From a virus: a stretch of DNA of 36,806 bases. The translations under genes and the position numbers were made by a program. The DNA lies in IMG/VR virus record IMGVR_UViG_3300005663_000126, positions 1 through 36,806 of that record. The stretch is one strand, 5' to 3'. The notes under the pieces were generated by a model. It made no database searches, was not told the DNA's origin, and worked only from the letters and a program-made list of their open reading frames with translations. Below are positions 9,556 through 34,856 of the stretch, in pieces. The number at the start of each line of letters is the position of its first letter. The first letter of the stretch is position 1.

Positions 9556-9561
9556 TAAAGG

Positions 9562-9668: not shown

Positions 9669-9691
9669 GTTGTTTAGAGTGAGATAAAATA

Positions 9692-17226: not shown

Positions 17227-17250
17227 CTCTAATTCTTAGAAAGGGTAATG

Positions 17251-18020: not shown

Positions 18021-18044
18021 GTGGAAATATTGGGAGTTAAACTA

Positions 18045-18800: not shown

Positions 18801-18840
18801 ATAACTTGTCGAGAATCTGAAATATAAAGGCGCTGTAATG

Positions 18841-19056
18841 TTCGATGACGATGGATGTCCAGCTAATCAAGCGTATATGTTAAATCTTCGCAAGTACATC
18901 CGTTTAATCGTTCGTGAAGGCAGAGACGCAGAGATAGGGGATTTCGTAAAATCCCAGACCAAGGACGACTTGGTTACATATGTATTAACCGCAGCTAATA
19001 TGGTAACCACTGGTTTAAGGTATGGTGGGCTAGTAGCTAATGGAGACATAGACTAA
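18841..19056 (+). CDS. Major capsid protein, exon 2
   Basis: About 71 residues starting FDDDGCPANQAYMLNLRKY, then IRLIVREGRDAEIGDFVKSQ and a final helix/strand pair. In related coat proteins the C-terminus has just this form: a short acidic stretch, C-P, an aromatic Y-x-L-N, then a strand with R-D. An ATG (18838) is in frame but without a ribosome site, so it is not a separate gene. Spliced to exon 1 it gives a coat of about 330-340 residues, a usual size. The exon start is uncertain by about ten bases. Confidence 0.78.
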   Translation, partial: FDDDGCPANQAYMLNLRKYIRLIVREGRDAEIGDFVKSQTKDDLVTYVLTAANMVTTGLRYGGLVANGDID

Positions 19057-19067: not shown

Positions 19068-19616
19068 ATGAAGAAATTACTATCTATTTTACTAATCCCG
19101 TTACTTGTGTTTGCATTTAGCGGGATAGCATTTGGTTGGGGTTCAACAGGTGGAGATGGCGAGAGATATACCCAAATCCAGGAAACAGCAGTCTTTTTTA
19201 ATAACACTGCTAGTGCAGCGTATAGCGATTTCACAGTTTATCACGGACAAGCTGTGATACTAGACCTTGATGGTTCAGATGTATCAAGTGGCACGACTTT
19301 AGGTGCTTATGTAGAAAAACCTGGCGAGAATGGTTCTGATGCAGATAGTATCTTAGTAGTCGGTGTTGCTCAAGGTGGAACGACATCAGGTTGGTTAGTA
19401 TCAAGACCAATAGTTGTTATTACGAAAGGCGCGGCTTTAACTCAAGTATCAGATTTAACTGATGCCATTACAAGTGGCTCTGCTGTAGGCACTGCTGTAA
19501 CAGGCGGAGGAAACGTAGGTGGTGGAACAAATCTTGGTATAGCGTTAGAAGCAGGGGACGGAACAGATGCTGATGAAATAATCATCTGGGTAGCCCCAGC
19601 AGGTTCAGGAGATTAA
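19068..19616 (+). CDS. Capsid-decoration-like protein with Sec signal peptide
   Basis: A 182-residue protein immediately after the coat gene, starting after GGGAGGG. Residues 1-23 form a Sec signal peptide (KK, hydrophobic core, cleavage after IAFG). The mature part is beta-rich: HGQAVILDLDG, VVGVAQGGTTSG, SRPIVVITKGAAL, LGIALEAGDG, IIIWVAP. This order resembles DUF2190-type capsid decoration proteins (a V-G-V-A strand, then a G-rich turn and a G-x-A-L-E element). Such proteins coat the capsid exterior and are normally cytoplasmic, so the signal peptide is unexpected. A strong hairpin terminator follows. Confidence 0.6.
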   Translation: MKKLLSILLIPLLVFAFSGIAFGWGSTGGDGERYTQIQETAVFFNNTASAAYSDFTVYHGQAVILDLDGSDVSSGTTLGAYVEKPGENGSDADSILVVGVAQGGTTSGWLVSRPIVVITKGAALTQVSDLTDAITSGSAVGTAVTGGGNVGGGTNLGIALEAGDGTDADEIIIWVAPAGSGD

Positions 19617-19627
19617 GACAAGGGCTT

Positions 19628-19662
19628 GGAGGGAGGCTTTGGCTTCCCTCCTTTGCTTTATC
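19628..19662 (+). terminator. Intrinsic-terminator-like hairpin after the decoration gene
   Basis: GGAGGGAGGC (19628-19637) pairs with GCTTCCCTCC (19642-19651) in ten base pairs with one G-T, around a TTTG loop. It is followed by TTTGCTTTATCTT. The T tract is interrupted, so termination may be partial. It separates highly expressed head genes from the next gene, whose likely ATG is only three bases beyond. Confidence 0.65.
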
Positions 19663-19664
19663 TT

Positions 19665-20846
19665 ATGTGGTATTTACTATACGCACTTATATTATTGACT
19701 TCAGTAATGTTCTTGCCGATACCAGACGCATTCGGATTGCCGAAACAGGTAATCTTCATAGTGTTGGGATTTATGATGATAGCGGTAAGCCTGATGAATA
19801 AGAATACAAAAACCTTAACTTTAAGGAACAAGTGGCTTAGTCTCACTTTTATCTATGTAATTCTATCTTCTCTTGGATATTATATGCCTCTTTTATTCTC
19901 CCAAAAAAAGTACATAGGGTTCAGCATAAATAGTATCTTGGCAATATTGACTATAATTTTATCGATTTTAATTATTCAATGTTTAGTCGAATGGACGGAT
20001 GATTTGAACAGATGGGTAAAGGTAGGTAAGTTTTTATCTTGGCTTGGATTTGGATTTAGTTTATATGCGCTAATTCAATTTTGTGGATTAGACCAGATAT
20101 TTTCTTCTAATTTAGAGTGGGCGCATAATCCATATAATCTGACTCAGGGAAACTTTTTTGATAATCACAGGATGATTACATTTTTAGGGAACAAGCGTGA
20201 GACAGCGTGTTTTCTGGCGATACTTTCTCCAATGTGCCTTATGTTTAAAGGTTTAAAATATAAAATTATATATGCGGTGATAGCCCTGACCATACTGATT
20301 ACATCCAGTTTTATTGGTATGCTTAGTTTAACAGCAGGGTTCTTTTTATATCTTCTTTTATCTGGAAAATGGAAGTTAGCCTTAACTGGTATTTTAAGCA
20401 CTCCTTTAATCGGATGGGGGCTTTTAAAGATAAATACTGATTTCTTTAATTTCTATGGGAAAGGGGAAATATGGAAAAATGTATTTTTAGGGACTATTCC
20501 TAAGTTTTTATTCGGTCACGGATTAGGCAGTTTTCCTCTTTTAGGATATAAAAAAGGAGATGATTTGGTAATAAATGCAGATTTTGAATTATTGCAACTT
20601 CTATCAGACGGTGGTCTGGTGCTGGTAATTCTGGTTATAGGTTATGTAATCACGTTATATAGACGGATATTTTTGGAGTTTCTATCATCGAATTCAATGC
20701 TTTTAATCGGATACATAGTGGGGTTGACTACGTTTCTAATAATTATGGTAGGTGCAAGTCCGCTACATTTTCCAGCACTTTTACTTATAGGATTATGTTA
20801 TGTAGCCTGTTTGGAGGCACAAACACAAGGGGGAAATTATGCCTGA
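19665..20846 (+). CDS. O-antigen ligase/polymerase-like (WaaL/Wzy) membrane protein
   Basis: About 393 residues from ATG 19665; the frame also opens at TTG 19626, which lies before the hairpin at 19628-19662, so the start is uncertain. It has about ten membrane spans. A periplasmic-type loop after the fourth or fifth span (SNLEWAHNPYNLTQGNFFDN) precedes further spans. Near the C-terminus is GHGLGSFPLLGYKKG, then NADFELLQLLSDGG and another span, matching the WaaL/Wzy layout (G-x-G-x-x-x-F...H-N-x-x-L-x-x-x-x-x-x-G-G). The usual H-N is A-D here. Members join or polymerise surface polysaccharides. It stands between head and tail genes, an unusual place for an envelope enzyme. Confidence 0.65.
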   Translation: MWYLLYALILLTSVMFLPIPDAFGLPKQVIFIVLGFMMIAVSLMNKNTKTLTLRNKWLSLTFIYVILSSLGYYMPLLFSQKKYIGFSINSILAILTIILSILIIQCLVEWTDDLNRWVKVGKFLSWLGFGFSLYALIQFCGLDQIFSSNLEWAHNPYNLTQGNFFDNHRMITFLGNKRETACFLAILSPMCLMFKGLKYKIIYAVIALTILITSSFIGMLSLTAGFFLYLLLSGKWKLALTGILSTPLIGWGLLKINTDFFNFYGKGEIWKNVFLGTIPKFLFGHGLGSFPLLGYKKGDDLVINADFELLQLLSDGGLVLVILVIGYVITLYRRIFLEFLSSNSMLLIGYIVGLTTFLIIMVGASPLHFPALLLIGLCYVACLEAQTQGGNYA

Positions 20847-21513
20847 AGAAAAAATTATGATTGATATTCACACAGCCAACGAGACTGTGAAGGGACTGAA
20901 TGAGACTATTAAAGTTAAGAGTGAGCAAGTGAAAGCATTGGAGACAAGGGAACAGAACATACAAGACAGTATCCACAGGGCTGATGTAAAGAAAGTCCAA
21001 GATAACCGAAACGAAGAGACCAAAATTAGCGTTAAATTGATAGAAGGTAGACAGAAATTAGAGGGTGAACGAGCAGTCTTTGAGTCAGGCAAGCGTGCGG
21101 ATGATATAAAGAAAGGTGAACTCGCTCGCAGGTTTCACGATTTAGAAACCAGAGAAAAAGAGATAGTCGATATAGACAAGGCTCATAAAAAACTCAATGA
21201 GGAGCGTCAGAGGTTTGACCATTACAAGTTTAATATTGAGCGGGAACTTGAACAGGCAAATATTACTATTACGGAAGCAGGGGTGCAGGAGGATAAACTG
21301 GAAGCTATCCGTTCAGAGATTGAAGGAATGAGGATAACTTTAAAAGAAGAGTCGTTGAAAATAGATACTGAAAGGGGAGAATTAACCGAGCAAAGGAAAG
21401 ATGTCCAATCTGAAATCGAACATTTAGAGGGACTTAAAAAATGGCACGAACATAAAAAGGAGGAAAAAAATGGCGACCTTAGAAAAGTTATTGAACTTGC
21501 AGGCAAAAGTTAA
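20839..21513 (+). CDS. Long coiled-coil protein (224 aa)
   Basis: ATG 20839 overlaps the preceding stop by eight bases and follows AAGGGGG. Nearly the whole 224 residues are heptad-like Lys/Glu/Leu/Arg helix with repeated KALETRE / DLETREKE segments, so an extended coiled coil is expected. No enzymatic motif or signal peptide. It lies between the head genes and the adaptor; a structural or whisker-like role is possible but unproven. It overlaps the next coiled-coil gene by 44 bases. Confidence 0.6.
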   Translation: MPEEKIMIDIHTANETVKGLNETIKVKSEQVKALETREQNIQDSIHRADVKKVQDNRNEETKISVKLIEGRQKLEGERAVFESGKRADDIKKGELARRFHDLETREKEIVDIDKAHKKLNEERQRFDHYKFNIERELEQANITITEAGVQEDKLEAIRSEIEGMRITLKEESLKIDTERGELTEQRKDVQSEIEHLEGLKKWHEHKKEEKNGDLRKVIELAGKS

Positions 21514-21934
21514 GGATTTAGAAAGTTGTAGAAGTAACCTTGAGAAAGAGAACGAGAATATCACTAAAGATACATTGAAAAAGAAAAGCGATGCCAATAG
21601 AGAGATAACCAAACAGAAGGAAGATTTTGATATTTACAAAAGAGGGGTCGAACAAAACCATAAGAAAATAGAAACTTCTCTTACTAATAGAGAAAAGGAA
21701 CGCTTACTAAAGGAAAAAGAGGGAAGGGATTTAGATGCAGACATCCAAGACTTCAACAAGAAAAAGAGAAGTTTTGCTCAAGAGAAGAAAGATATTGAAA
21801 AACTAAAGTCCGAATATATAGATAGAGAGTACAAGGCAAATCTTCTAATCGCTCAATATAATAAGATGACAGGAGAATTGCCACAGGAGAAGCCAAAGGT
21901 TGAAAAAATATCTAAAAAGAAGAAAAAGAGGTAA
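21470..21934 (+). CDS. Second coiled-coil protein (154 aa)
   Basis: ATG 21470 follows AAAAGGAGG. It is a coiled-coil-rich protein (EKLLNLQAKVKDLESC, then K/E/R-rich helices) ending in a very basic tail (KKKKKR). Like the previous protein it carries repeated short motifs (TNREKERLLKEKEGRDLDAD). The two may have arisen by duplication and may pair with each other. It directly precedes the adaptor gene with a two-base gap. Function unknown. Confidence 0.6.
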   Translation: MATLEKLLNLQAKVKDLESCRSNLEKENENITKDTLKKKSDANREITKQKEDFDIYKRGVEQNHKKIETSLTNREKERLLKEKEGRDLDADIQDFNKKKRSFAQEKKDIEKLKSEYIDREYKANLLIAQYNKMTGELPQEKPKVEKISKKKKKR

Positions 21935-21936
21935 CT

Positions 21937-23088
21937 ATGCCACGCATGACTTTTAAGGACATCTATACTGATGTTCAGGATATTTCTGTCGTTAAGGTGA
22001 GCAGTAAGCTCGCTTTAATCAAACGAGGTATACAGGCAGGACTGGATATTTTAACTTCAAAAGACTTGCCCTATTTGATGACAGATGGGCTTTTTCCTAC
22101 AGTAGCTATTCATAATACAGGGAACGTGGATGTAACCAATGGTTCTGCTACTGTATCAGGAGGCGCGACCTCGCCTGTTTTTACATTAAGTATGGTTGGT
22201 AGGAAATTCCGTGCGGCAGATGAGAATACTTGGTATAGGATTAAAGCCTTTGTCTCATCGACAGAAATTACCCTAGAGACTGAATATTTAGGTGATACTG
22301 ATACTGACGCAAGTTACGAGATAATTAAAGACGAATATAGATTGGCTAGTGATATGGCGACCCATAAGGTAATGCGTCAAGTCCAGGATAAAGTTGCTAT
22401 GGGAAGTATTGAGTCTACTGCATTTGATATTTTAGAACCTTCAGCCATATCTCAAGGTTCTCCACGATTCGATATTATAGTCGGTTCCAAACTCGATTTA
22501 TATATTACCGGCACAGTTTCGGGGACAAGTGGTGCTGTTATAATCACGGGTTCATCAACTTTGTGGACAGGTGTGGAGGGATTAGGAAAAGGAACTCGGA
22601 TAACTGTAGGTAGTAATGTCTATACGGTGAAGTCAGTAGACTTGGATACACAGATAACTATATATGAAACATTAGCCAGCACTATCTCAGCAGGCACAAG
22701 TTATGAAATGTTAATGGATAATATGAGACTAAAGGTATTCCCGATACCTGATGAAGCTGAAATAATAAAATACCGTTATCAGAGGTTGGCTTATCCATTA
22801 AGGGCTGACACAGATATAGCGGACTTACCGGATGAATGGCACCACATACTTATAACTGCTGGTTTAATAACAGCCTATCAGACCAAAGATAAGGAAGAGG
22901 CCAATAGGCAATTTCAGAGATTTTTTACTTTAACAAATGCTTTCTGGCGCAGGGTAGGTGCTATATCATCATCAAGGACATATCCTCGGGCAGACCAAGA
23001 CGCATTGGCTTTACAGGCACTTTTTGGCAGAGGGGTTCGTATAGGCGCAGATTATGGAGTGCCTATTCCTTTAAATAGTTTAATATGA
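21937..23088 (+). CDS. Head-tail adaptor protein with two inserted beta domains
   Basis: A 383-residue protein in the place of a podovirus adaptor (T7 gp11 / P22 gp4 role). The N-terminus (TFKDIYTDVQDISVV, KRGIQAGLDILTSKDLPYL) and the C-terminus (KYRYQRLAYPLRADTDIADL, DEWHHILITAGLITAYQTKD) are the recognised adaptor helices. Between them lie two similar beta modules, about residues 62-130 and 190-259, each with a NGS/GSS start, T-x-x-G-R/T-x-F/I, a Y-x-I/V-K strand and a T/S-Y-E ending. Adaptors commonly carry such inserted modules. No signal peptide. Start follows the TAACT of the previous gene closely. Confidence 0.75.
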   Translation: MPRMTFKDIYTDVQDISVVKVSSKLALIKRGIQAGLDILTSKDLPYLMTDGLFPTVAIHNTGNVDVTNGSATVSGGATSPVFTLSMVGRKFRAADENTWYRIKAFVSSTEITLETEYLGDTDTDASYEIIKDEYRLASDMATHKVMRQVQDKVAMGSIESTAFDILEPSAISQGSPRFDIIVGSKLDLYITGTVSGTSGAVIITGSSTLWTGVEGLGKGTRITVGSNVYTVKSVDLDTQITIYETLASTISAGTSYEMLMDNMRLKVFPIPDEAEIIKYRYQRLAYPLRADTDIADLPDEWHHILITAGLITAYQTKDKEEANRQFQRFFTLTNAFWRRVGAISSSRTYPRADQDALALQALFGRGVRIGADYGVPIPLNSLI

Positions 23089-24671
23089 AAAAAATTCTTT
23101 CAATAATATTAGGTATTACCTTATTAGCTTCTTTTTCATTTGCGGCTGTAGATTGGCAACGCTTTGAATTTTTTGAAAATTCAGGGGGACTCAATGATCA
23201 ATTCTCTCCCATCTTAATTGAGGATAATGAAGCCAGTAATCTCCAGAATGTAGTCTTTACCAAAGCAAAACACTGGAAAACAAGAGATGGGTTTAAGGCA
23301 CTTAATACTGATATTATAGGTTCAGATATAACCTGCACAGGTGGTATATATTACAGGACTATAAAAGGAGTAAAGCATTTGGTAGCTATATTTAGCGATG
23401 GCACAATCCGAAAGATGGATTATAACGCTAACGGGCCAGATGGTACTTGGGATGATATTACTGGTTCAATAATATTTTTGGTTACACAAAATGATTTGGC
23501 AAGTTTTGCAATCGGGGAAGATACCTTAATCATAGAGGATGGAGTAACCGGTACTGCACCTTATAAGTGGACAGGTTCTGGGAATGCAACTGATTTAGGC
23601 GGCTCGCCTCCAAATGCCTCAATAGTAACATATCATAAACGCCACGCCTTTTTTGCGGGAGACAGAGACAATCCCTCCATATTATATTTCACGGATTTAG
23701 GGGATATTGAAAACTCGACAACTGGTTTAAGCGGTAATGTCGAGATTGAAACAAACGATGGCACTATTATAACAGCATTAGCCCCTGGGTTTGACGCTTT
23801 ATATATCTGGAAAGGCGGTTCAGCAGGCAGGGGTTCTATATGGCGGCTTTCAGGAGACGATAAGGATACCTTCAAACTTCAAAGAATGGTATCAGACGTA
23901 GGGACATTGTCTCCGAGGTCAGTCGCTTTAATCGGAAATTCCTTTTTTTTTATAGATAGTCAGGGTGATACTTATATTTACGATGGGGCGATTGGGTTAC
24001 GTCTTATCTCGACCAAGATAGAAGGGACAAGGGATAACCTTAATTTTGACAGGTTTCCATATATATCAACAGTTGCCTTTGATAAGGATTATTATATCTC
24101 TGTTTCAGATACTTCAGCAGCCTTCAATAATATGATTTTGGTTTTTGATACCTTTCCTTTAGCGTGGACGAAATTTAGCGGGTTTCACGCCAATGCCTTA
24201 TGGGTGGCAGATAATGGCTCTGGCCAAGATATGCTCGTGTGGGGAGGTTATAAAGGGGTTGTATTCAAGTATCCTTCGGGAACGAATGATGACGATGTGG
24301 CAATAGATATGTTCTACCATACAAAGAAATATAGTTTTCCCGAACTACGGAACCCAGAGTCAAAGGCTAATAAGGCGTGGAGGGCATTAAGGGTATTCTG
24401 TAAGCAGAAGGGCAATAATGATTTAATCATAGAACCGAGGGTGGATTTTGGTTCATCAGGTACTTCTTCAGATATGAATTTAAAAGGCACTAAATCGCTC
24501 TTTGGGACTGCTAAATACGGGACTGCTATATATGGCGGGAAGAATATTATAATAGAAAGGTTTGAACCAGATTTGGAAGGGGATTATTTCCAGATACTCT
24601 ATTCAAATAATACCAAAGACGAACCGATTGAAAATTTTGGTTGGCAGATTTCGATAGAGACAGTGGATTGA
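23085..24671 (+). CDS. Tail nozzle/hub beta-propeller-like protein with Sec signal peptide
   Basis: A 528-residue protein coupled to the adaptor by ATGA. Residues 1-20 form a Sec signal peptide (MKK, hydrophobic core, cleavage after FSFA). The mature region has propeller-like repeats of strand-turn-strand units: WKTRDGFKAL, HLVAIFSDGTIRKMDY, RHAFFAGDRDNPSILYF, ALYIWKGGSAGRG, SVALIGNSFFFIDSQGD, MLVWGGYKGVVFKYPSG. This is the layout of the long nozzle (tail tubular B-type / gp10-like) proteins of podoviruses. Nozzle proteins act on the virion outside the capsid, attached to the adaptor. The signal peptide is unusual for one made in the cytoplasm. Confidence 0.7.
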   Translation: MKKILSIILGITLLASFSFAAVDWQRFEFFENSGGLNDQFSPILIEDNEASNLQNVVFTKAKHWKTRDGFKALNTDIIGSDITCTGGIYYRTIKGVKHLVAIFSDGTIRKMDYNANGPDGTWDDITGSIIFLVTQNDLASFAIGEDTLIIEDGVTGTAPYKWTGSGNATDLGGSPPNASIVTYHKRHAFFAGDRDNPSILYFTDLGDIENSTTGLSGNVEIETNDGTIITALAPGFDALYIWKGGSAGRGSIWRLSGDDKDTFKLQRMVSDVGTLSPRSVALIGNSFFFIDSQGDTYIYDGAIGLRLISTKIEGTRDNLNFDRFPYISTVAFDKDYYISVSDTSAAFNNMILVFDTFPLAWTKFSGFHANALWVADNGSGQDMLVWGGYKGVVFKYPSGTNDDDVAIDMFYHTKKYSFPELRNPESKANKAWRALRVFCKQKGNNDLIIEPRVDFGSSGTSSDMNLKGTKSLFGTAKYGTAIYGGKNIIIERFEPDLEGDYFQILYSNNTKDEPIENFGWQISIETVD

Positions 24672-24961
24672 AAAGATTATTATTTATTCCATTAGTTTTG
24701 ATAACGGTATATGCCTTTGCGAAGAATATATCAGCTCCCCCGCCTCTTAAAGAAGAACCAGTTGCCGAGCAACATTATTTTCGAGAACTTTATGACAACT
24801 GGAACAACTTGGAGGAAACAACCACGAACCCGAATGGGAATAGGATAGGGAAATCAGGAGATATGGTGTTATACAAAAATAATCTATTGGAATTTTTCAT
24901 TACGGTAAATATAGACAGTGCTTTTCATTGGTGGGCTGTAAAATTAGAGGATTTATTATAG
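24668..24961 (+). CDS. Small exported tail-region protein, TTG start (97 aa)
   Basis: The likely start is TTG 24668, overlapping the nozzle TGA (TTGA); a frame open further upstream lacks a ribosome site. From 24668 the product begins KRLLFIPLVLITVYAFA, a signal peptide of normal shape, then a proline-rich KNISAPPPLKEEP. The mature part has aromatic and Asn-rich segments. No domain recognised. Its place between nozzle and spike suggests a tail accessory protein. Confidence 0.5.
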   Translation: MKRLLFIPLVLITVYAFAKNISAPPPLKEEPVAEQHYFRELYDNWNNLEETTTNPNGNRIGKSGDMVLYKNNLLEFFITVNIDSAFHWWAVKLEDLL

Positions 24962-24970
24962 GAGGAGATT

Positions 24971-26749
24971 ATGAAAAAAATTATTATAGCATTGTTTATT
25001 TTACTTTTTGCTTCTAATGTTTTATCTGCTCCAACCGATTTAATGACGGTTTCGCCTTCTGCGACTGATGATACAGTCATTGAGGCAACAGATGAAAATT
25101 CCCGTAATTCAACCATATCAACCCCGTATAATGTGCATTCACATAACGGTCTAATAGGTGCAGCTACATTATTCGTAGCTTCAAGTGGGGGAGAATTTAC
25201 GACAATCACCGCAGCGATGAATGCCGCTTCAAGTGGGGATATTATCCTTGTGGCTGAAGGGACTTACACAGAGAGTGTTACATTTGCTGCTGATGACATT
25301 ACTCTTGTCTCCATCGGTTCAATGGAGAACACTATTATTACTCAAACCGATGCAGATGTGGTAGATTTTTCTACAAGAGAAGGATGTGTATTAGATGGTT
25401 TTACGATTTCCTTAACAGCAGCGGATAACGCTACGGATGATGTCATATCAGGCGCAAGTGATACAACCGATGACACTTTTAACATTATACAAGATTGTAA
25501 AATTATAGCGACAACTGCGGATGTTATTTCGGGTTGGAATCCAGTTGGAACAAGTGACGGGAATTATAGATTTATACATTGTGAATTTGAAATTGACCAG
25601 AATAATATTGCTACTGCTGCGGTAGATGCTATGGTTTTTGTCGGCGGGAATGTTGATTTAATCGATTGTATTATTGATTTTCAATCTACCCAGACTGGAA
25701 CTGGAAATCTAATCGTACTCAGTCTTGGTGGAGGTTCATTCACTGCAAATATTGAAGATTGCAGGATAACATTAGATTCGGCTACTACTACCTTATCACA
25801 AAACATAGGTCTTGTCGGCTCATCAAGCGGATTTACAGTCAATATCCGTGATACCTTTATTCATGCCTATACTACTGCCTCTGGTGATGCTATTGCACTT
25901 AGGGCGGAAGGGGCAGGTACATTTAATCTTTATAATGTCATTCTGGATGCAAATAACAGTGATGCTGATGAAGAAGCTATTGACGTTACAGCAGGGGATA
26001 CTGTAAATGCTCATAATGTCAGCATTGTAGAGGGGACTATAACTAATAATGGAACACTCACCGAATGGGGTATAAGAGATGAAAACCAGAGGCCCCGTAA
26101 TGTTGCTGGTATGTATATTGGAACGGTACAAGATAATAATCTTTTTGATGATACCACTACTGGCGGCGGAACTACTACAATGTATATAGGCAATGGTGCA
26201 ATAAATGTAACCTGTTTTACTCAATATCATTCATATCAACTTGGAGATAAGGATTTAGAAACGGGTGAAGCAGTCAGGTTAGATAATGATGGACTTTTAT
26301 ATAGGACTACCTCTGAAAATGACCCGACATTTAGAGGTCTATTTTATAAAAAGACTGCGTGGAGGACTGCCTTTGGGGATGAGTTAATTCAAAAAGGGTA
26401 TGAAAAAATAGACGCCGAAGGTAAGAAACGACAGAAAGACAAGAAAAAAGATTATAAATACAAAACTAAAAAGAAGGCTACCAAAAATGATTATGCTTAT
26501 TATGTAGCAGTGATAGGCGATAGTTATGTCAAGGAAACAGGAGAAAGTGTATTTTTGGATGGTGCGTGGGTGTGCGATGAGGGTGGGTCGATAAATAATG
26601 GGGATTTTCTTACAACTGCCAATAGGGCTGGATATTTGAAAAAACAAACAGATGGTTTACACCATACATATACAGCAGGAAAGATGCGACAGGACATAAT
26701 ATTTGACATAGATGGAATAAATAAAACTGCTTATATGGATATTTATTAA
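24971..26749 (+). CDS. Beta-helix tail-spike-like protein with Sec signal peptide
   Basis: A 592-residue protein after GGAGGAG. Residues 1-20 form a Sec signal peptide (KK-rich start, cleavage after NVLSA). The mature N-terminus has a short NVHSH/HNGL-type attachment-like segment. Residues about 75-360 are Ile/Thr/Asn/Asp-rich with repeated strand-turn units (GGEFTTITAAM, LDGFTISLT, FVGGNVDLIDC, NIEDCRITLDS, FNLYNVILDA), typical of right-handed beta-helix spikes or pectate-lyase-like depolymerases. No catalytic residues can be named. The C-terminal ~200 residues (YVAVIGDSYVKETGESVFLD, then WVCDEGGSINNGDFL) resemble a trimer-maturation domain of the peptidase G2/chaperone type, tentatively. 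Role: receptor binding or polysaccharide cleavage. Confidence 0.65.
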   Translation: MKKIIIALFILLFASNVLSAPTDLMTVSPSATDDTVIEATDENSRNSTISTPYNVHSHNGLIGAATLFVASSGGEFTTITAAMNAASSGDIILVAEGTYTESVTFAADDITLVSIGSMENTIITQTDADVVDFSTREGCVLDGFTISLTAADNATDDVISGASDTTDDTFNIIQDCKIIATTADVISGWNPVGTSDGNYRFIHCEFEIDQNNIATAAVDAMVFVGGNVDLIDCIIDFQSTQTGTGNLIVLSLGGGSFTANIEDCRITLDSATTTLSQNIGLVGSSSGFTVNIRDTFIHAYTTASGDAIALRAEGAGTFNLYNVILDANNSDADEEAIDVTAGDTVNAHNVSIVEGTITNNGTLTEWGIRDENQRPRNVAGMYIGTVQDNNLFDDTTTGGGTTTMYIGNGAINVTCFTQYHSYQLGDKDLETGEAVRLDNDGLLYRTTSENDPTFRGLFYKKTAWRTAFGDELIQKGYEKIDAEGKKRQKDKKKDYKYKTKKKATKNDYAYYVAVIGDSYVKETGESVFLDGAWVCDEGGSINNGDFLTTANRAGYLKKQTDGLHHTYTAGKMRQDIIFDIDGINKTAYMDIY

Positions 26750-27168
26750 TGAATATGTTAGAACTTTGTAATCATATCTACGAGAATTATCCGAATATGA
26801 AAAAGATGTTTCCTCGCTGGAGGCTTTTAAGTCTTTTGGACAAGAACGAGGATAAAGTTTTCTATTTTAAAGAAAATGGTAAGTTTATCTGTGCTGCATT
26901 ATATGTAAAACTTACTGATAAGACCTTTGCGAAATTAGATTTAGGTTTTGTGAATATGCGTAATTCCGAAGAAGTACAGGAACTTTTAAAGGAGAATGGA
27001 AAAAATATCCACGTGATATATGTTTTAGCCAATGGAATGAAATCAATAAGGAAAGGTATTCGTAAAGTCATAGAAAAGGAAAATCCAAAAACATTTAGTT
27101 GGTATGAACCAGATATGAGTAGATTACATATTTATAAAATAAAGGGGGAGTTATGCCACAAGTTATAG
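26749..27168 (+). CDS. GNAT-like/internal-virion-A-like protein (139 aa)
   Basis: A mixed alpha/beta protein with strands KVFYFKENGKFICAALYVK, FAKLDLGFVN and IHVIYVLANGMK, then NPKTFSWYEPDMSRLHIYK. The last motif (a strand after N-P, then W-Y, then R-x-x-x-Y) recalls T7 gp13-like proteins and small GNAT-fold phage proteins that sit before ejection proteins. I cannot show an acetyl-CoA motif, so an enzyme call is not made. It lies between spike and ejection genes and overlaps the next gene by 16 bases. Confidence 0.5.
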   Translation: MNMLELCNHIYENYPNMKKMFPRWRLLSLLDKNEDKVFYFKENGKFICAALYVKLTDKTFAKLDLGFVNMRNSEEVQELLKENGKNIHVIYVLANGMKSIRKGIRKVIEKENPKTFSWYEPDMSRLHIYKIKGELCHKL

Positions 27169-28229
27169 TACCACTTATAACAATAGGCGGAGGGTTTTTA
27201 CTCCAACGCAAAGCTCGTAAACAACAGGAACAGGCTCAATCAAGAGCCGAGGAATTTGCAAGAGACCAAGCAGAAGAAGCCAAAGTAGAGCAAGTACGTT
27301 TAGAGGAAAAATTCGGTTTAACCCCAGGGGAACTCGAACGGGAAGAGAGAACATTTGCACTGGAACAAACTCGAATAACTGAGGCACAACGTCGTGCAGG
27401 TCTTACAGGTGAGGAACTCTTGCGTGAGGCTGGCCCAGAGACTCGTAGGCTTTTAGATAGCGTAGCTGAACGTTTCGGTATGACAGGGGAAGAACTTTTT
27501 AAGGCAGAGGGAGAGATACCTACTGCTTTAGCTGAACAGGTCTTAGCTGGGGTTCAGGAACCATCAAAGTTTTTTGAAGATACACTAAAAGAACAATTAG
27601 AACTAGCTCGTACTCAGATAAACGCAGAGGCACAAAGACGAGGCGTATTCGGTGGCAGACCTGAAGGCGGAATACGCTTTGAGATGTTAGGCAGAGCAGG
27701 GGTGGAGTTAGCCATAAAATCCGCAAGGGAAAAAGAGGCTGCCAGACAACAAGGTTTAAGCAACGCTTTTCAATTAGCACAGCAATTTGAGGAACTATCC
27801 TCTATTGCTAGAGGTGAGGCAGGAACAGTAGGGGAGCGTTCATTAAGCGAACAGGAACGTGCAAGAACAGAATTAGATACTCTTTTAGCTAATGTACAAG
27901 GATTATCAGAACGTGCAAGAGGTAGGGCTGCGGAGGTAGGAATACAAGCCAGGCAAGTTACTGAACCAGGCAGAGCATTTGAAAGAGAGACAATATCTGA
28001 TATAGAAGGTATTAGAATAGGCGAGGCTCAGGCAAGAGAAAGAGCAGGATTGGAACTTATAGGACAAGGGGTAGGTGATATTTTTGGGGGTGCGGGATTA
28101 CCAACTCCCGCTAAAGCAACTACCCCTCCTACACCAACAAATTTTGAATTTTTACAAAGAGAGCAGAGAAAAAAAAGATTAGGTGGTTTAACAGAACTTA
28201 CAGGAGCAGCAAATTTAAGAATATCCTAG
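27153..28229 (+). CDS. Putative ejection/internal virion protein 1 (358 aa)
   Basis: Starts after GGGGGAG. A short hydrophobic N-terminus (VIVPLITIGGGFLL) precedes a very long Glu/Arg/Ala-rich helix with repeated LTGEELL and LTPGELE elements. Podovirus ejection proteins of the first position usually look like this: one hydrophobic stretch then long alpha-helices. No signal peptide cleavage site follows. It would be packed inside the capsid and injected with DNA. The three consecutive genes 27153-30526 fill the usual three ejection slots. Confidence 0.6.
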   Translation: MPQVIVPLITIGGGFLLQRKARKQQEQAQSRAEEFARDQAEEAKVEQVRLEEKFGLTPGELEREERTFALEQTRITEAQRRAGLTGEELLREAGPETRRLLDSVAERFGMTGEELFKAEGEIPTALAEQVLAGVQEPSKFFEDTLKEQLELARTQINAEAQRRGVFGGRPEGGIRFEMLGRAGVELAIKSAREKEAARQQGLSNAFQLAQQFEELSSIARGEAGTVGERSLSEQERARTELDTLLANVQGLSERARGRAAEVGIQARQVTEPGRAFERETISDIEGIRIGEAQARERAGLELIGQGVGDIFGGAGLPTPAKATTPPTPTNFEFLQREQRKKRLGGLTELTGAANLRIS

Positions 28230-28238
28230 GAGGTTATT

Positions 28239-29126
28239 ATGGCACTTTTAGAGGGAGTCCGTCAAGGACGTGAAGGAGGCGGTGGAACGCCTTTAACCGC
28301 ACTAATAGGCGGTATAGTGACTGCCCGTAGACGCAGGGTAGAAGAGAACAAAGCCCGTCAAATAGAAGAAGAAGCATTAGAACGAGAACTTAAAATACTC
28401 AATGAAAAAGCCACACAGGATAGGATAACTGGATTACAGAAAGCTAAACAAGAAGGCCTAATAAAAAAGGGAGAACAAGAGCGGAAGTTTGGCTTCGAAA
28501 GAAGGCTAGGACGAGAAGAATCTAGACTTGAGTCAGAAGAAGAAAGACGTCAAGAAAAGGCTGGATTAAAAAAGTCTATAATATTAGAGAGGATTAAGGG
28601 TGGGGAGGCAAGGCGGACTTTAGAAAGAGAGATTAGTTTGGGATTAAAAGGCCCAGGCAAAAAAACTGCTGCACAAGAAAAAAGAGAGGTTGAAATAGGT
28701 GAATTAGAAGGTCAAGCAAAAAATTTAATAACCTTATTTAGATCTGCAAGAAAAGAAGCGGGAACAATACCCAAAATAGGAACACGAGGTATATTGGGTA
28801 GAGCTGCTGGACAGGTGGCTATAGGAAAAGGTAAATTAGGATTTTCCCCTGCCGTCAATGTATTTCAAGATAAAACAAAAGCGTTTGCTACTATCGTGGC
28901 AAAAGCAGCAGGAGAAGTAAGACCTACTGATAAGGATATTGAGAGATTTATGGGAACTCTTCCAACATTATCAAAAAATGATGCCGAAAATAAAATTATA
29001 ATAGAACAACTTGTAGGAGATTTAAGAGCTAAAGGTGCAAAGGCAGTTTGGGCACAAAGAGGGAAAAATCAAGAAGTTAAAGAGGGACAAACTTCAAGTG
29101 GGATTAAATTTACAATAGAGGATTAA
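28239..29126 (+). CDS. Putative ejection/internal virion protein 2 (295 aa)
   Basis: Starts after TAGGAGG. The N-terminus is glycine-rich and then basic helical (TALIGGIVTARRRRVEENKA), with Lys/Arg/Glu-rich helices to about 150. A second part (about 150-260) is globular with GTRGILGRAAGQVAIGKG and FQDKTKAFATIVAKAAGEV. No enzymatic motif. It sits between two other ejection-type proteins and resembles middle-position internal proteins by composition. No signal peptide. Confidence 0.55.
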   Translation: MALLEGVRQGREGGGGTPLTALIGGIVTARRRRVEENKARQIEEEALERELKILNEKATQDRITGLQKAKQEGLIKKGEQERKFGFERRLGREESRLESEEERRQEKAGLKKSIILERIKGGEARRTLEREISLGLKGPGKKTAAQEKREVEIGELEGQAKNLITLFRSARKEAGTIPKIGTRGILGRAAGQVAIGKGKLGFSPAVNVFQDKTKAFATIVAKAAGEVRPTDKDIERFMGTLPTLSKNDAENKIIIEQLVGDLRAKGAKAVWAQRGKNQEVKEGQTSSGIKFTIED

Positions 29127-29128
29127 TT

Positions 29129-30526
29129 ATGACTAAGATAAGATTTGAGACAGGACAAGTTATAGATTTTGATGGAACTCCTACTCGACAAGATATAGAT
29201 GAGGTAGCTCAACAATTAAATATCAAACCTGTAAGTCCTGTAACTGAAGAAGCTCCTAAGAGAACATCAATTCTTCCTCTTGTGGGTCAAATTGCTGGAG
29301 GTATAGCTGGGGGAGTAGCTGGGGCAACTGTAGGACGTCCATTTGTAGGTGCTGGAGTGGGTGGTGTATTGGGTAGGACTGGAGCAAGAGAATTTGAAAG
29401 ACAGACTGAAGAACTAATAGAAAAACCAATTAGAACAATATTTGAAACTGCAAAGGAACCGGTATTTTCTCCCATAAGAAGTATTTTAAGAAGAACTCCT
29501 GAAGAAAGAGAAGAATTAGGTAGAGAAATAGGAATAACTGCTGGAACAGAAGCGGTATTTGCTCCAGTCGGAATAGGGTTTAGTAAAATTATTGGTGTTG
29601 TAGGAAAAGGTATATCAGGTGGATTATTGGGAAGAAGGGTTACTCAACGTGGGATTGAACGTGGGTGGAAGGCTCTATTAGACCCAAAACTATATCAAAA
29701 TAGGATTTCAAAAGAAACAGCAGTTAAGACAAATAAATTTTTTACTAAGGTTTCAAATGTAACTGGCAAAAGAGTCAGTGATTTAGTAAATACCAAGTAT
29801 AAAAATGTTAAATTAAATATGATAGATATAAAAAACAGAGTAAGGGCATTATTACCTAAGAGTGGAAAACCAGAAGATTTGTTAGAAAGATTTGCTCCAA
29901 AATCACAAAGAGAACTCGTAAAAGGTTTAACTGATGATATATTGGAGGCAGGTGACACAAAAAGTATATCTGAATTATGGAAATTTAGAAAAGATGAATT
30001 AGATAAGGCTATATTCGGAAAAAGTTGGACTGAAGATGCTCTAACTTATCTTAAAGGATTAAGGCGAGCTATAAATGACCCCATAAGAAATGTGGGAGAT
30101 GATGTAGCAAGTGCCTTTGATAACTATGCTTTTGTAAAAAATGCGGAAGAAGAATTGGCTAAGAAGTTTACGGCAATCCAGAATAAAGCGACAGGTGAGA
30201 TTTTTGCTCCTGATTTAGAAAAATTTATAACAAGTTTGCTATCGGAAAGTAAAGATGAAACTATAAGATTATTAAGAAGTATGGATGCATTTCTCGATGT
30301 GTCTGATAGGGTCATAGAACAAGCGTTAGATGCAGCAGCAGCCGAATCATTAGAAAAAGGAGTAGGTATAACTTTAGTCGGAAGGATTATTGCAGGTCTT
30401 TTTGGAGGTAGAAAAATTCTTCCACGAATAGGACGCGAAGTTCAGCGCCCTGTAACTCAAGCTGTAAAAACTGGATTAGGGAGATTATTGCCTTCACTCA
30501 CTAGGGAAGGGATTGCCACGCAATAG
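29129..30526 (+). CDS. Putative ejection/internal virion protein 3, glycine-zipper type (465 aa)
   Basis: Starts two bases after the preceding stop. Residues about 45-80 form a glycine/alanine-zipper region (GQIAGGIAGGVAGATVGRPF and following G-x-G-x-G-G), suited to membrane insertion. A second hydrophobic section around 150-165 and a long helical domain (about 170-400) follow, and a third G-rich stretch near 415. Such patterns are typical of the ejection protein that forms a DNA conduit across the host envelope. No signal peptide despite its membrane-targeting role. The following 129 bases (30527-30655) have no supported gene. Confidence 0.6.
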   Translation: MTKIRFETGQVIDFDGTPTRQDIDEVAQQLNIKPVSPVTEEAPKRTSILPLVGQIAGGIAGGVAGATVGRPFVGAGVGGVLGRTGAREFERQTEELIEKPIRTIFETAKEPVFSPIRSILRRTPEEREELGREIGITAGTEAVFAPVGIGFSKIIGVVGKGISGGLLGRRVTQRGIERGWKALLDPKLYQNRISKETAVKTNKFFTKVSNVTGKRVSDLVNTKYKNVKLNMIDIKNRVRALLPKSGKPEDLLERFAPKSQRELVKGLTDDILEAGDTKSISELWKFRKDELDKAIFGKSWTEDALTYLKGLRRAINDPIRNVGDDVASAFDNYAFVKNAEEELAKKFTAIQNKATGEIFAPDLEKFITSLLSESKDETIRLLRSMDAFLDVSDRVIEQALDAAAAESLEKGVGITLVGRIIAGLFGGRKILPRIGREVQRPVTQAVKTGLGRLLPSLTREGIATQ

Positions 30527-30655
30527 AAACGATAAAAAATTACCTCGGATACTTTATGAACAAACAGCTAAACTGACATAAAAGTGCTACTACAATCAGG
30601 CTACCAATAATTTTTAACATACTACAACCATACCACACAATAGGAGACGAGTCAA

Positions 30656-30982
30656 ATGCCATTATCAGGATTTAGCATAACACATATGATAGCAGGGTTG
30701 TATGAAGCGGGGGCTTTTGAGAAACTGATAGTATCTAGTTCTGTAAAAATACTCACAGCAAGTAAATATACCAAGGGGAATGCTCTTGCTAAAAGAGCTT
30801 TTATCACTGTAGAAAATGCCTCGTTAAGATATAAACATAATGGCGACAATCCCTCATCTTCAGAAGGTCATATAGCCAGACCGAACTCAATTATAACTAT
30901 TCTAGGAACAGTTAATATAAAGAATTTTAAAGCGATAAGGATAAGTTCAAATGCGACTCTTCAAATTACTTACGGTTTTTAG
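30656..30982 (+). CDS. Small virion-associated beta protein (108 aa)
   Basis: Starts after AGGAGACGAG. It has a pattern frequent in phage fibre-region proteins: KRAFITVENASLRYKHNGDN, then SSSEGHIARPNSIITILG and NFKAIRISSNATLQITYGF. This reads as a small beta-sandwich ending in a strand with Y-G-F. Family members are usually annotated as hypothetical structural proteins. It lies just before a fibre gene, overlapping it by 32 bases. No signal peptide. Confidence 0.6.
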   Translation: MPLSGFSITHMIAGLYEAGAFEKLIVSSSVKILTASKYTKGNALAKRAFITVENASLRYKHNGDNPSSSEGHIARPNSIITILGTVNIKNFKAIRISSNATLQITYGF

Positions 30983-32624
30983 TTTTATATTTTTTTTAGC
31001 TACTACTTCTTTCGCTCGCAATGGGTCGGGTAGCAGTCTGGAATATGGAGCAGTATCCTCGATCCGTGATGCCTCTACAGAGACATACCCTTGGGAAGTA
31101 ACCTTTGTGCCTGATGGCGGAGTCCAAGATAATGGAGACGGTACAACTACGATAAATTTAGATACAGCGTTAGTAGGTACGTTTCTTCGGCTTGATACCT
31201 CAAACGACCCCCTTACAAACAATTTAACAATTCAAGGTGATTTAACCCTATCCACACCAAACGCCGCTATAAGACTAGAAGGCCCAACAGGGAGAAACTA
31301 TCACTGGTATAGAGAACCAGATAATTTATGGGTTATTGCTGATACGGATACTGGATATATATTCGTACAAGGAATACAAAATGACCACTTAGCTTTAGTC
31401 CCTATATCTGGTACGGTTTCAATAGGCGCAGGATTAGGACAGGGAACAGGGGAATTACTATATGTTGGTGGCACAACGAAGATAACAGGAGATACTACAT
31501 TAGGCGGAAACCTCACCTTTACAGGTTCTAGTGCTTCTATTTTAGCTTCCAGTGATTTAAAAATTCTACCTAACGCAGGAGGAAATATAATTTTATACGG
31601 TGATGTGGATGTCGGAGATGATGAAGACGGAAGAAGTTGGACTTTAAATAGAATGGCAGTTGAAGGAGATGATTTTATTAAAGTATTTATAGAACAATTG
31701 AGAAGAACCAGAATAGAAAGTAATAGAGCTATTGTTATAGATAGTGATGTAAATTTACAATTACAAAGAGAGGCCTCTGGCGATATTATATGTTTTGGTG
31801 CTGCCGTTTCTGGTGAAAATCCTTTTTTTCAGTTGAGGGGTTTTATTACTGCTGCTAGTGGAGTCAGACATACCTCCTCCCAAGTCTCCGACATCACCGA
31901 CAGATTAGAGGAAACAAGACAAGATGCGAATATATTAGGAAAGACTGTGAATATGCCTTTCACCGTTGACGCTGATGATGACGGGGGAAGTGATTTGGTT
32001 GTTGTAGATACTGCTGTTGGACTCGGGACAAATGACCCATTATCGTATGATAATAAAGCAGACGCTTTAGTTATAAAAAGAACAGGGGGTGCAGGACTTT
32101 CGATAGTAAGTGGAACGGCTAATGATGGAACTATTCTATTCGCTGATGGTATTGCTGGAACTTCTGCTGCTTTTATGGGAGGTATACAATATTTTCATAA
32201 CACAGATGAGATGTATTTGTGGAGCGGTGGAAGATTTAATGTTCCAGAGATAATTTTAGATAATGGCGATGTCGGCATTGGGACAACATCAGGTATAGAT
32301 TCTATTCTCGAAGTAGATGGCCCAATAGGAACTGCCATAGAAACAGTAACAGGTGATACTACATTAGACAATACTCATTCAACGCTTTTAGTAAATGCAA
32401 GTGGGAACGTGGTTATAACTTTGCCAAGTGTAGCTTCATCTTACAATAATACCGATGGAATCGGAAGAACTTACAGAATTAAAAAGATTGATGCTGATGC
32501 AGATACCGTGACCATCGATGGGGATTCGGCTGAAGAAATCGATGGAGAATTAACGGCAGTATTGACGGCACAGTGGGAATCAATTGATATTCAGTCGAGT
32601 GGCGTTGCTTGGTTTGTATTATGA
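30951..32624 (+). CDS. Tail fibre-like protein with Sec signal peptide (557 aa)
   Basis: ATG 30951 lies inside the previous gene. Residues 1-22 form a signal peptide (MRLFK, a Phe/Leu-rich core, cleavage after TTSFA). The mature part is a Gly/Thr/Asp/Asn-rich beta fibre with repeated segments such as GDTTLGGNLTFTG, NGDGTTTINLDT and DNGDVGIGTTSG, and a tip region with VTGDTTLDNTHSTLLVNASG then VTIDGDSAEEIDG, a common phage fibre/trimer ending. It would bind receptors or decorate the tail. The 3' end overlaps the minus-strand HNH gene by six bases. Confidence 0.65.
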   Translation: MRLFKLLTVFSFIFFLATTSFARNGSGSSLEYGAVSSIRDASTETYPWEVTFVPDGGVQDNGDGTTTINLDTALVGTFLRLDTSNDPLTNNLTIQGDLTLSTPNAAIRLEGPTGRNYHWYREPDNLWVIADTDTGYIFVQGIQNDHLALVPISGTVSIGAGLGQGTGELLYVGGTTKITGDTTLGGNLTFTGSSASILASSDLKILPNAGGNIILYGDVDVGDDEDGRSWTLNRMAVEGDDFIKVFIEQLRRTRIESNRAIVIDSDVNLQLQREASGDIICFGAAVSGENPFFQLRGFITAASGVRHTSSQVSDITDRLEETRQDANILGKTVNMPFTVDADDDGGSDLVVVDTAVGLGTNDPLSYDNKADALVIKRTGGAGLSIVSGTANDGTILFADGIAGTSAAFMGGIQYFHNTDEMYLWSGGRFNVPEIILDNGDVGIGTTSGIDSILEVDGPIGTAIETVTGDTTLDNTHSTLLVNASGNVVITLPSVASSYNNTDGIGRTYRIKKIDADADTVTIDGDSAEEIDGELTAVLTAQWESIDIQSSGVAWFVL

Positions 32625-33104
32625 GGTTGTTCTATGTTTTCTAGAAATCTTATAACATTTTTTACAATAGGATTTATGTTTAAAGATATTAGTAGTATCT
32701 CTAAAAAATTGAGTATAGGGTTTTGTAATTCTGCATTTACTGCATTCTCTACTATGTTTGCCAATAAAACCTTTAGTGTGATGAAGACTTGTATGTTTAG
32801 ACTTTGTAAGAATTTTCATATTTTTAATTCTATTATCAATTTTATTTCCGTTAATGTGGTGGGTTTCTTCGCTATCTGTAAGAGGTCTACCAAGATGTTG
32901 TTCCATAAGATAACGATGTTCTCTAACTTGATGTCCATTTATAGTGATAATTTTATAACCATAGACTTTACAAATATATCCAGAACCAGTAGAGGCTCTA
33001 TGAGTAATATTGGGGCTTCCCCATCTATGCCATCTCATATAATGTTTCTCGCAAAGTTTTCTACGTGTAGCCAAGTTATTGCATTTATTCATTTTACATT
33101 TCAT
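32619..33104 (-). CDS. Free-standing HNH homing endonuclease on the minus strand
   Basis: A 161-residue product, the only leftward gene supported here. The N-terminal zinc-like patch has Cys3, Cys8, Cys18 and His21. The HNH core is VREHRYLMEQHLGRPLTDSE (about 60-79), THHINGNKIDNRIKNM (81-96), and KSKHTSLHH (101-109), a typical HNH_3-type layout with catalytic His82/83 and Asn91. A C-terminal finger has CSKC and CKKC. It lies between two fibre genes, as mobile endonucleases do. The opposite-strand frame at 32634-33143 is its shadow. A consensus promoter stands right at its start. Confidence 0.85.
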   Translation of the reverse strand: MKCKMNKCNNLATRRKLCEKHYMRWHRWGSPNITHRASTGSGYICKVYGYKIITINGHQVREHRYLMEQHLGRPLTDSEETHHINGNKIDNRIKNMKILTKSKHTSLHHTKGFIGKHSRECSKCRITKPYTQFFRDTTNIFKHKSYCKKCYKISRKHRTTS

Positions 33105-33110
33105 AAAGTA

Positions 33111-33139
33111 ATTGTAACATATAAAACAAATTGTGTCAA
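33111..33139 (-). promoter_or_regulatory. Consensus promoter of the minus-strand HNH gene, likely leaderless
   Basis: On the minus strand, TTGACA (33139-33134) and TACAAT (33116-33111) are exactly 17 bases apart. The start codon ATG (33104-33102) begins only about seven bases after the -10, so the predicted transcript starts at or next to the A of ATG. No ribosome site precedes it. A leaderless message is therefore expected. Confidence 0.75.
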
Positions 33140-33159
33140 TTAAATTATAAGGAGAGATT

Positions 33160-34455
33160 ATGAAAAAACTACTAATTTTAAGTTTTATATTAAGTTTTGT
33201 ATTACTGGCTAATCCTTGTTTTGCTTCTCATCTTAAAGACGTAAATATAGCAACACAGGACTCCGAGGCATTAGACGCTTTTGGCAGGTTCAGGGTAAGT
33301 CAACCCTTCAATGTCTTTGATATGCAGTTTAACTATGACTTACAACCTCTATTTTTTGAAGAATCAGCCACAGGCGGTGGCGATGTAACTCACGTTCCAG
33401 CTTTGTCGTCAGCGAGATTGACTACGGGTGGGACTACTGATACTCATGGAGTCATCTTTCAGACAGGAGAATATTTCCGCTATCAACCGGGAAAAAGTCA
33501 ATTCGTGGTATGGACTTGTATATTAGGTTCTAAGACTTCCAATGTCCGTAAACGCATAGGATATTTTGACTCCGAAAACGGGTTCTTTTTTGAACAGGAT
33601 GGGACTAACTTAAAAATAATCCGCAGGACAAAGACTTCGGGTTCAATAGTAGATAACGCAGTAAATCAGTCCTCATGGAATTTAGATGTATTGGATGGCA
33701 GTGGAAAAAGCGGTGTTACTTTAGACGAAACTAAGGACAATATTTATGTCATAGATTTCCAATGGTTAGGAGCTGGAAGGATTCGTTTCGGTTTTGACTT
33801 TGGTGGTCAAATTACCTACGTTCATCAAATCAAATTCGCCAATACAGAAGCAGTGCCTTTTTCAGTAGCAGGCAACCTTCCTTTTAGGGCAGAGATATTT
33901 AACACCGCAACCGCAGCAGGAACAACCACATTTGATTTTACCTGTGTAGCCATAACGAGTGAAGGTGGGTTTAATCCATTAGGTATTCCCGGTTCGGTTA
34001 GTAATGGTGTAACCGAGAGAACAGTGTCTACCACGCCGTTGCCTATTCTGTCTATCAAAATGGCTGACACTTTCAATAGTATTACAAATAGATCCTTAAT
34101 TGAGCCGTTAAGTTACGAAATATATTCTCTTGATGAAAACATATTTTATCAAATAATCTTAAACGGGAGCTTAACCAATGCTTCGTTTAATGCGGTAGAC
34201 GCAACAAATAGCGCAGTAGTGTTTGATGTGGCAGCAACGGCGATAAGCGGGGGTTTTGTTATTGATAGCGGGTTTCTTACGGGGGCAAGGGATAAGAAAG
34301 AGGCAGGCATAGATAGGAGAGGTTTATTGGCAAAGTTATTTATGGCTCAAAACATAGCAGGAAATTCAGGGGATATTTTAAGTATTGTAATGACAAGAAT
34401 GGCGGCAGCAGACGCAAGTTGTTCGGCCGCTTTTACATGGGAGGAATTTAGATAA
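33160..34455 (+). CDS. Virion fibre/baseplate-like protein with Sec signal peptide (431 aa)
   Basis: Starts after AAGGAGAG. Residues 1-22 form a signal peptide with cleavage after NPCFA. The mature N-terminus contains DAFGRFRVSQPFNVFDMQFN, a hallmark segment (D-A-F-G-R-x-R-V-S...F-D) found in many phage structural proteins. The rest is a beta-rich fold with FVVWTCILGS, NGFFFEQDGTNLKIIRRTK, IDFQWLGAGRIRFGFDFGG and YSLDENIFYQIILNG, as in those proteins. It may be a tail fibre or capsid fibre. Coupled to the next gene at ATAATGG. Confidence 0.7.
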   Translation: MKKLLILSFILSFVLLANPCFASHLKDVNIATQDSEALDAFGRFRVSQPFNVFDMQFNYDLQPLFFEESATGGGDVTHVPALSSARLTTGGTTDTHGVIFQTGEYFRYQPGKSQFVVWTCILGSKTSNVRKRIGYFDSENGFFFEQDGTNLKIIRRTKTSGSIVDNAVNQSSWNLDVLDGSGKSGVTLDETKDNIYVIDFQWLGAGRIRFGFDFGGQITYVHQIKFANTEAVPFSVAGNLPFRAEIFNTATAAGTTTFDFTCVAITSEGGFNPLGIPGSVSNGVTERTVSTTPLPILSIKMADTFNSITNRSLIEPLSYEIYSLDENIFYQIILNGSLTNASFNAVDATNSAVVFDVAATAISGGFVIDSGFLTGARDKKEAGIDRRGLLAKLFMAQNIAGNSGDILSIVMTRMAAADASCSAAFTWEEFR

Positions 34456-34856
34456 TGGTTAAAAAAGCGGATATAGAATTAAAGTTTTTATGTTTTGTGG
34501 TGGTATGTATATTCGTAATATCTTTTTCGGTAAATTGTTTCGCACAGGACACTTTTGACGAAGTTACTGAAAACCCTAAAAATCCCATAGTTGATACAAT
34601 CTTGGACTTTGACAATATGGAGATACATCTTAAACATTCAGAGGTGCGTACTTATAAGGTACATCGGGATGCTAACGGGGATGAGGTAAGGAGAGAAGCA
34701 GGGCCGAATTTTATCTATAGAAACGAGGAGGAGAATAATCCTGATACTTCTTATGACGATACGCAAATGCACACTATCTTTATGCAGAAATTAGGATTGA
34801 ATAAAGCGGTAATCAAGCAGGCGGTAAAAGAGATGGAGTTGTTGAAACGAGAATAG
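34455..34856 (+). CDS. Exported hypothetical protein (133 aa)
   Basis: ATG 34455 overlaps the previous TAA by one base. Residues 1-30 form a long signal peptide (MVKKADIELKF then a Val/Phe/Ile core, cleavage after NCFA). The mature protein is highly acidic and Asn/Asp-rich (EENNPDTSYDD) with a helical C-terminus (KLGLNKAVIKQAVKEMELL). No domain recognised. It belongs to the cluster of small exported proteins after the fibres; function unknown. Confidence 0.6.
   Translation: MVKKADIELKFLCFVVVCIFVISFSVNCFAQDTFDEVTENPKNPIVDTILDFDNMEIHLKHSEVRTYKVHRDANGDEVRREAGPNFIYRNEEENNPDTSYDDTQMHTIFMQKLGLNKAVIKQAVKEMELLKRE

Follow-up and report, generated by a model that had tools for sequence, protein, structure and literature searches.

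Tailed phages are thought to finish their particles in the cytoplasm. The virus record IMGVR_UViG_3300005663_000126, analysed here over positions 1 to 36,806 (the whole stretch of 36,806 nucleotides, hereafter the window), raises the question of whether the exterior parts of such a particle can be sent through the Sec pathway before assembly. A first-pass annotation had assigned Sec signal peptides (SPs) to the proteins starting at 19068, 23085, 24668, 24971, 30951, 33160 and 34455, and had called the scaffold, coat, portal, adaptor, coiled-coil and ejection proteins SP-free.

Predicted signal peptides in the window

All window products were translated and scored with a home-made rule-based scorer for Sec SPs cut by signal peptidase I (SPI). 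The scorer looks for a net positive n-region, an uncharged hydrophobic core and a cleavage site; its von Heijne-type cleavage matrix is approximate. Clear Sec SPs were called at 12830, 19068, 23085, 24971, 30951, 33160, 34455 and 35378 (genes are cited by start position; predicted cuts, marked by a slash, are in Table 1). A basic n-region, a hydrophobic h-region and small residues at -3 and -1 were seen at these starts, both by the scorer and on inspection of orthologues. For the small tail protein, the longest open reading frame (ORF) begins at 24641. The TTG at 24668, correctly chosen in the first-pass annotation, overlaps the nozzle stop codon (TTGA) and gives MKRLLFIPLVLITVYAFA/KNISAPPP, a textbook SP. 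Predicted mature N-terminal ends in the exported window proteins include WGSTGGDGER, AVDWQR and APTDLMTVSPSATDDTVIEATDENSR.

No SP was called by the scorer on portal 13275, scaffold 16336, coat 17248, coiled coils 20839 and 21470, adaptor 21937 or the ejection-type proteins 27153, 28239 and 29129; short uncharged hydrophobic stretches in 27153 and 28239 had no basic n-region ahead of them. The split between exterior and interior proteins is real and stronger than first claimed. Every SP on the earlier list was borne out, as was every SP-free call, but the list had missed 12830 and 35378. These two bear SPs, and 7789 and 35715 have lipoprotein-like N-termini by the scorer, showing that export takes in more than the virion surface. 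The statement that the split tracks the outer surface of the virion was nearly right, the exported 12830, 34455 and 35378 having no known place in the particle. The roles "decoration" and "spike" are ones that we infer.

Shine-Dalgarno-like sites precede the starts 19068, 24971 and 33160. No in-frame start with such a site was found near the cleavage point of the exported proteins, indicating that they have no obvious cytoplasmic isoform. Export by the twin-arginine (Tat) route was rejected, as no twin-arginine motif was seen.

Conservation and natural controls

Scans of viral and genome collections yielded further family members (G001, G005, G006, G007, G008, G009c, G010, G011, L001 and L064). 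In the seven of these that were scored along with the window, identity to it was 49-59% wherever the terminase or nozzle was compared. When the eight genomes with enough sequence were scored (the window, G001, G007, G008, G009c, G010, G011 and L064), SPs were found on 38 of 39 exterior-type N-termini and on none of 58 interior ones; the sorting into two classes was ours, by homology and gene position, and with orthologues that are not independent the counts describe a pattern and are no formal test. The sole miss was the fibre of G007, whose hydrophobic N-terminus had too low a cleavage score. Nozzle orthologues carry an SP, as do the small tail orthologues of G007, G009c, G010 and L064, and that of G008 when read from an upstream start. 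Among orthologues, the signal parts were 40-47% identical and the mature parts 46-60%. The signals thus diverge at least as much as the mature parts yet keep their physical features, as expected of real SPs.

The 12830 family has an SPI-type SP in six genomes (the window, G001, the G005 fragment, G006, G009c and G010) and a lipobox version in two (G008 and L064). Such a swap is easiest to understand if selection acts on export itself. In L069, a more divergent contig, SPs were found on the nozzle and spike and not on the adaptor. G003, a fragment of an unrelated podovirus, bears SPs on its DAFGR protein and fibres; its head protein (phrog_212 family) and its T7-type tubular tail protein are both without one. 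Since G003 has a different capsid family and is still SP-bearing, the trait occurs in more than one phage lineage.

Ordinary phages gave a very different result. No SP was called on any of 132 structural coding sequences of P22, T7, lambda, N4, CRP-1, PA11 and HMO-2011, compared with 38 of 136 genes in the corresponding blocks of the window's family; as the genes within the one family are not independent, the Fisher value for this comparison can serve as an indication only. The structural proteins of the co-linear Mx9 and those of MW202803 were also negative. By contrast, the scorer was positive on known exported phage proteins (lambda Lom, Bor and Rz1; P22 Rz1). The earlier judgement that chance acquisition is unlikely agrees with these counts.

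Relatives without an SP provided a further control. G004, a fragment from another phage whose structural proteins bear no SPs, encodes a DAFGR protein 80% identical to the window's over residues 23-272. The starts read FA/SHLKDVN in the window, IA/SHIQNVN in G003 and M-SHIRNVN in G004. The G004 protein begins at the cut point, indicating that cleavage would leave the same N-terminus as in this relative after methionine removal. Cyanophage PHROG 1645 virion structural proteins are homologous to 33160 over nearly its full length, and the S-RIM12 homologue begins without an SP, unlike the window and G003 copies. Residue 3 of the nozzle homologue of MaAM05 aligned to window residue 26. The N-terminal motif of spike 24971 was matched to SP-less phage fibre N-termini (hhalign, E=9.3e-5, probability 59%), and the C-terminus of fibre 30951 was similar, by eye, to the SP-bearing G003 and the SP-less G004 fibres. 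In the nozzle, spike and DAFGR homologues of other phages the hydrophobic segment is simply missing. The first-pass annotation had said that homologues whose virions are normal and cytoplasmic, yet which also have these hydrophobic N-termini, would speak against it; such homologues were looked for and not found. Together, the SP-less relatives and the lipobox exchange are two natural controls that point to real, cleaved export, as judged by sequence comparison.

Proposed two-compartment assembly and its alternatives

The restriction of SPs to exterior-type proteins, their presence throughout the family and the agreement between the predicted cut and the point where an SP-less relative begins support a two-compartment virion. 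Synthesis and assembly of the portal, scaffold, coat, adaptor and ejection proteins and of the packaged DNA would follow the usual cytoplasmic course. On the exterior side, the decoration, nozzle, small tail, spike, fibre and DAFGR proteins would be exported through Sec, cut by SPI and held folded in the periplasm. Late in infection the inner membrane would open, and the exterior parts would then join DNA-filled heads on the periplasmic side. Export of the exterior parts is very likely on the predictions above; that export and cleavage do take place, when and where the parts join, and why they are exported are points that we infer. We regard the scheme for this phage as probable, with considerable reserve. 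The wider statement, that a tailed-phage lineage and at least one unrelated phage build such a virion, with an outer set that is perhaps glycosylated and does not join the heads until the inner membrane opens, leans only slightly to the probable side.

Several points weigh against this scheme. A nozzle of the P22 gp10 type helps to retain DNA; if the nozzle is exported, the adaptor would be the only closure of filled heads up to the opening of the membrane. The three exported proteins at 12830, 34455 and 35378 are without a known virion role. The SP evidence comes from a home-made scorer with an approximate weight matrix and not from SignalP, and the whole case is known from sequence alone.

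The possible purpose of export would be modification by a linked WaaL-like enzyme, or would lie in the host's envelope plan. Disulfide formation looks weak as a purpose, several exported proteins having few or no cysteines. One extension of the two-compartment model gives it a definite purpose: export would serve mainly to bring the exterior proteins to a phage WaaL/PglL-type enzyme (19665-20846) that attaches sugars to them in the periplasm, ahead of assembly. We treat this extension as speculative and secondary, and on balance as doubtful. In all seven genomes covering that region, the membrane-protein gene comes directly after that of the decoration protein. Its orthologues in G007, G008 and G009c matched PF04932 above the cut-off, while the window copy itself fell below it; the AlphaFold2 (AF2) model of the window protein (pLDDT 77) had WaaL 7TPG as its best PDB match (E=2.2e-3, TM 0.58). 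PglL-type genes mostly adjoin the gene of an exported acceptor (21 of 31; PMC3643930). Family match, fold and an adjoining exported-protein gene are all shared with PglL/WaaL. The window gene differs in sitting in a phage late operon and in its key residues. Two arginines and a histidine are reported to be important in WaaL/PglL (PMC3643930), but in an alignment read by eye the full set of R215, R288 and H338 (E. coli WaaL numbering) was kept in G007 only, and the histidine was missing in the window, G001, G009c and G010, leaving the important residues unconserved in most members. Nor was the gene seen in G003, a fragment of 15.8 kb, and PF04932 also takes in polymerases and ligases whose substrate is lipopolysaccharide.

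Alternatively, exported copies could act on the infected cell by receptor blocking, surface-polymer degradation or superinfection exclusion, with virions using unprocessed cytoplasmic copies. Spike and fibre proteins could indeed bind their own receptor from outside. However, no extra-virion job is obvious for the nozzle, decoration and DAFGR proteins, no alternative start yields an SP-free form, and the signals were retained in every family genome examined; we consider this reading improbable.

A still less probable alternative is that the hydrophobic N-termini, which all exterior parts have, stay uncleaved and anchor these proteins, the virion being assembled on a membrane or keeping one. 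Against this, small-x-small sites were retained across divergent sequences, SP-less relatives begin at the cut point, and hydropathy found no second membrane segment in exterior proteins except for weak single calls in L064 and G003. The first-pass suggestion of export before assembly is thus well supported by conservation, SP-less relatives, lipobox swaps and the zeros in ordinary phages, whereas its variant of membrane tethering is unsupported. The same holds for its proposal of an unusual envelope association, the sites being of SPI type and the exterior virion proteins generally lacking a second membrane segment. Wrong start codons or chance hydrophobic N-termini are hardly credible as the cause: although the starts are predicted and some are TTG or overlap upstream genes, this is contradicted by in-frame conservation in the eight family genomes and L069, by the zero count in ordinary phages and by the Shine-Dalgarno-like sites.

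Virion proteins of filamentous phages (M13-type) use Sec SPs before assembly. Those phages assemble in the membrane and are extruded, whereas the window is a double-stranded DNA tailed phage that would export its exterior parts only; its terminase match (phrog_38, E=8.9e-44) and its scaffold and major head protein families place it outside the filamentous phages. Sec-exported or signal-arrest-release endolysins are likewise phage proteins using the host Sec system, but they are lysis enzymes and not virion parts. In P22, gp7 is trimmed by the host OpdA according to the record annotation, which is not export.

The export signals follow the outer surface of the virion through the whole phage family. 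Assuming that export is real, a Sec-exported virion exterior would be new for tailed phages as judged from the open-access literature, in which no report of SP-bearing tailed-phage virion proteins was found. A rumen phage paper lists SP-bearing proteins, one or two of them, for two Bacteroides phages; the passages concerned give them no virion assignment. If true, this would be a new morphogenesis route, and it would explain how a phage could exploit periplasmic folding or modification for its surface. The absence of an SP has been taken as support for the phage origin of proteins (Hankyphage paper, PMC6199706), and, if export is confirmed, virus detection and protein annotation may misfile proteins such as those of the window as cellular secreted proteins.

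Gene map, host and neighbouring features

By its gene order the window is a P22-like short-tailed phage, with portal and ejection roles that rest partly on position. It holds terminase, portal, scaffold, coat, adaptor, nozzle and ejection genes in the order found in P22 and its relatives, including Myxococcus phage Mx9 (Table 1). The coat resembles that of Mx9, with which the block is co-linear, and the nozzle falls in the head-closure family phrog_578, as in P22-like phages; P22 and Mx9 structural proteins are without SPs, unlike the exterior proteins of the window. In the decoration family, two of seven members matched PF09956 (Phage_cement_2) weakly, with E=0.014 at best, and one matched the minor capsid family PF23982 (6.6e-4). 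Decoration 19068 gave no profile match to Mx9 p82 by hhalign, and its structure prediction (pLDDT 34) was not used.

Table 1. Features of the window, with predicted SP cuts and the basis of each identity.
Feature	Position	Strand	SP (predicted cut)	Basis
Terminase large subunit	11109..12833	+	none	phrog_38 E=8.9e-44
Exported CPxC (zinc-ribbon-like) protein	12830..13174	+	SFA/EI (scorer)	between terminase and portal
Portal-type protein (677 aa)	13275..15308	+	none	weak match to annotated head-to-tail joining protein; position
Scaffolding protein	16336..17226	+	none	phrog_3927 E=1.5e-4
Major capsid protein, first exon region	17248..18045	+	none	phrog_9953 E=1.9e-17; intact orthologue in L002
Group I intron splitting capsid gene, HNH ORF 18021-18791	18021..18801	+		Rfam RF00028, 72 bits at 18577-18801
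Major capsid protein, second exon region	18838..19056	+		matches C-terminus of intact orthologues
Decoration/cement-like protein	19068..19616	+	AFG/W (scorer)	position after coat; weak family matches of relatives
Polytopic membrane protein, Wzy_C/O-antigen ligase (WaaL) type	19665..20846	+		orthologues match PF04932; AF2 model
Coiled-coil protein 1	20839..21513	+	none	translation, scorer
Coiled-coil protein 2	21470..21934	+	none	translation, scorer
Head-tail adaptor-type protein, two inserted domains	21937..23088	+	none	PHROG tail matches
Nozzle/head-closure protein	23085..24671	+	SFA/AV (by eye; scorer's site one residue later)	phrog_3287 1.6e-13; phrog_578 Hc3 3.9e-7
Small tail protein	24668..24961	+	AFA/KN	TTG start coupled to nozzle stop
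Tail spike/fibre, SP ahead of N-terminal anchoring motif	24971..26749	+	VLS/AP (scorer)	N-terminal profile alignment
Ejection-type protein 1	27153..28229	+	none	position
Ejection-type protein 2	28239..29126	+	none	position
Ejection-type protein 3	29129..30526	+	none	weak phrog_167 tape-measure match
Fibre	30951..32624	+	SFA/RN (scorer)	phrog_37034 at C-terminus
DAFGR virion structural protein	33160..34455	+	CFA/SH (by eye; scorer's best site 3 residues later)	phrog_1645 7e-95
Small exported protein	34455..34856	+	CFA/QD (scorer)	scorer

The host is perhaps a member of the Planctomycetota, and the evidence for it is weak. G009c is a contig binned with a Planctomycetota metagenome-assembled genome (MAG), where it is the assembly's NODE_1 of 30 kb; the other contigs sampled were 2.5-5.6 kb. 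No 16S was found in this MAG, and PF07596 gave one weak match. The tetranucleotide correlation was 0.816, with two of the eight sampled stretches (L058 and L059) at a GC content of 0.0, apparently masked; this correlation may be circular because bins are often built by composition. When 392 genomes of the phylum were searched with a terminase profile, only divergent terminases were found besides the known contig, and the six loci inspected held no structural block of the window type.

MaAM05 (L003, MW495066, "Microcystis phage MaAM05") is a 274 kb record; in the stretch inspected, hppA, ftsH, proS, lepA, purB and glgX lie beside a phage structural block, which gives the record the look of a bacterial contig that carries a prophage-like region. 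Cell-wall hydrolase-like ORFs were recognised by eye on the minus strand of G009c (1878-2243), G010 (2265-2618) and G007 (9327-9746, RlpA-like). Their N-termini are hydrophobic and signal-like, suggesting that lysis too may use Sec.

The two inserts of the adaptor (residues about 60-146 and 189-262) are related to tail-fibre and tail-protein PHROGs. In the otherwise plus-strand late region, an opposite-strand ORF at 32619-33104 (minus strand) is HNH endonuclease-like by eye. The capsid gene (17248-19056) is interrupted by the group I intron with its HNH ORF. An HNH-like ORF is inserted near the 5' end of the coat gene in G009c, and the coat gene of G010 is broken in the same 3' region as that of the window.

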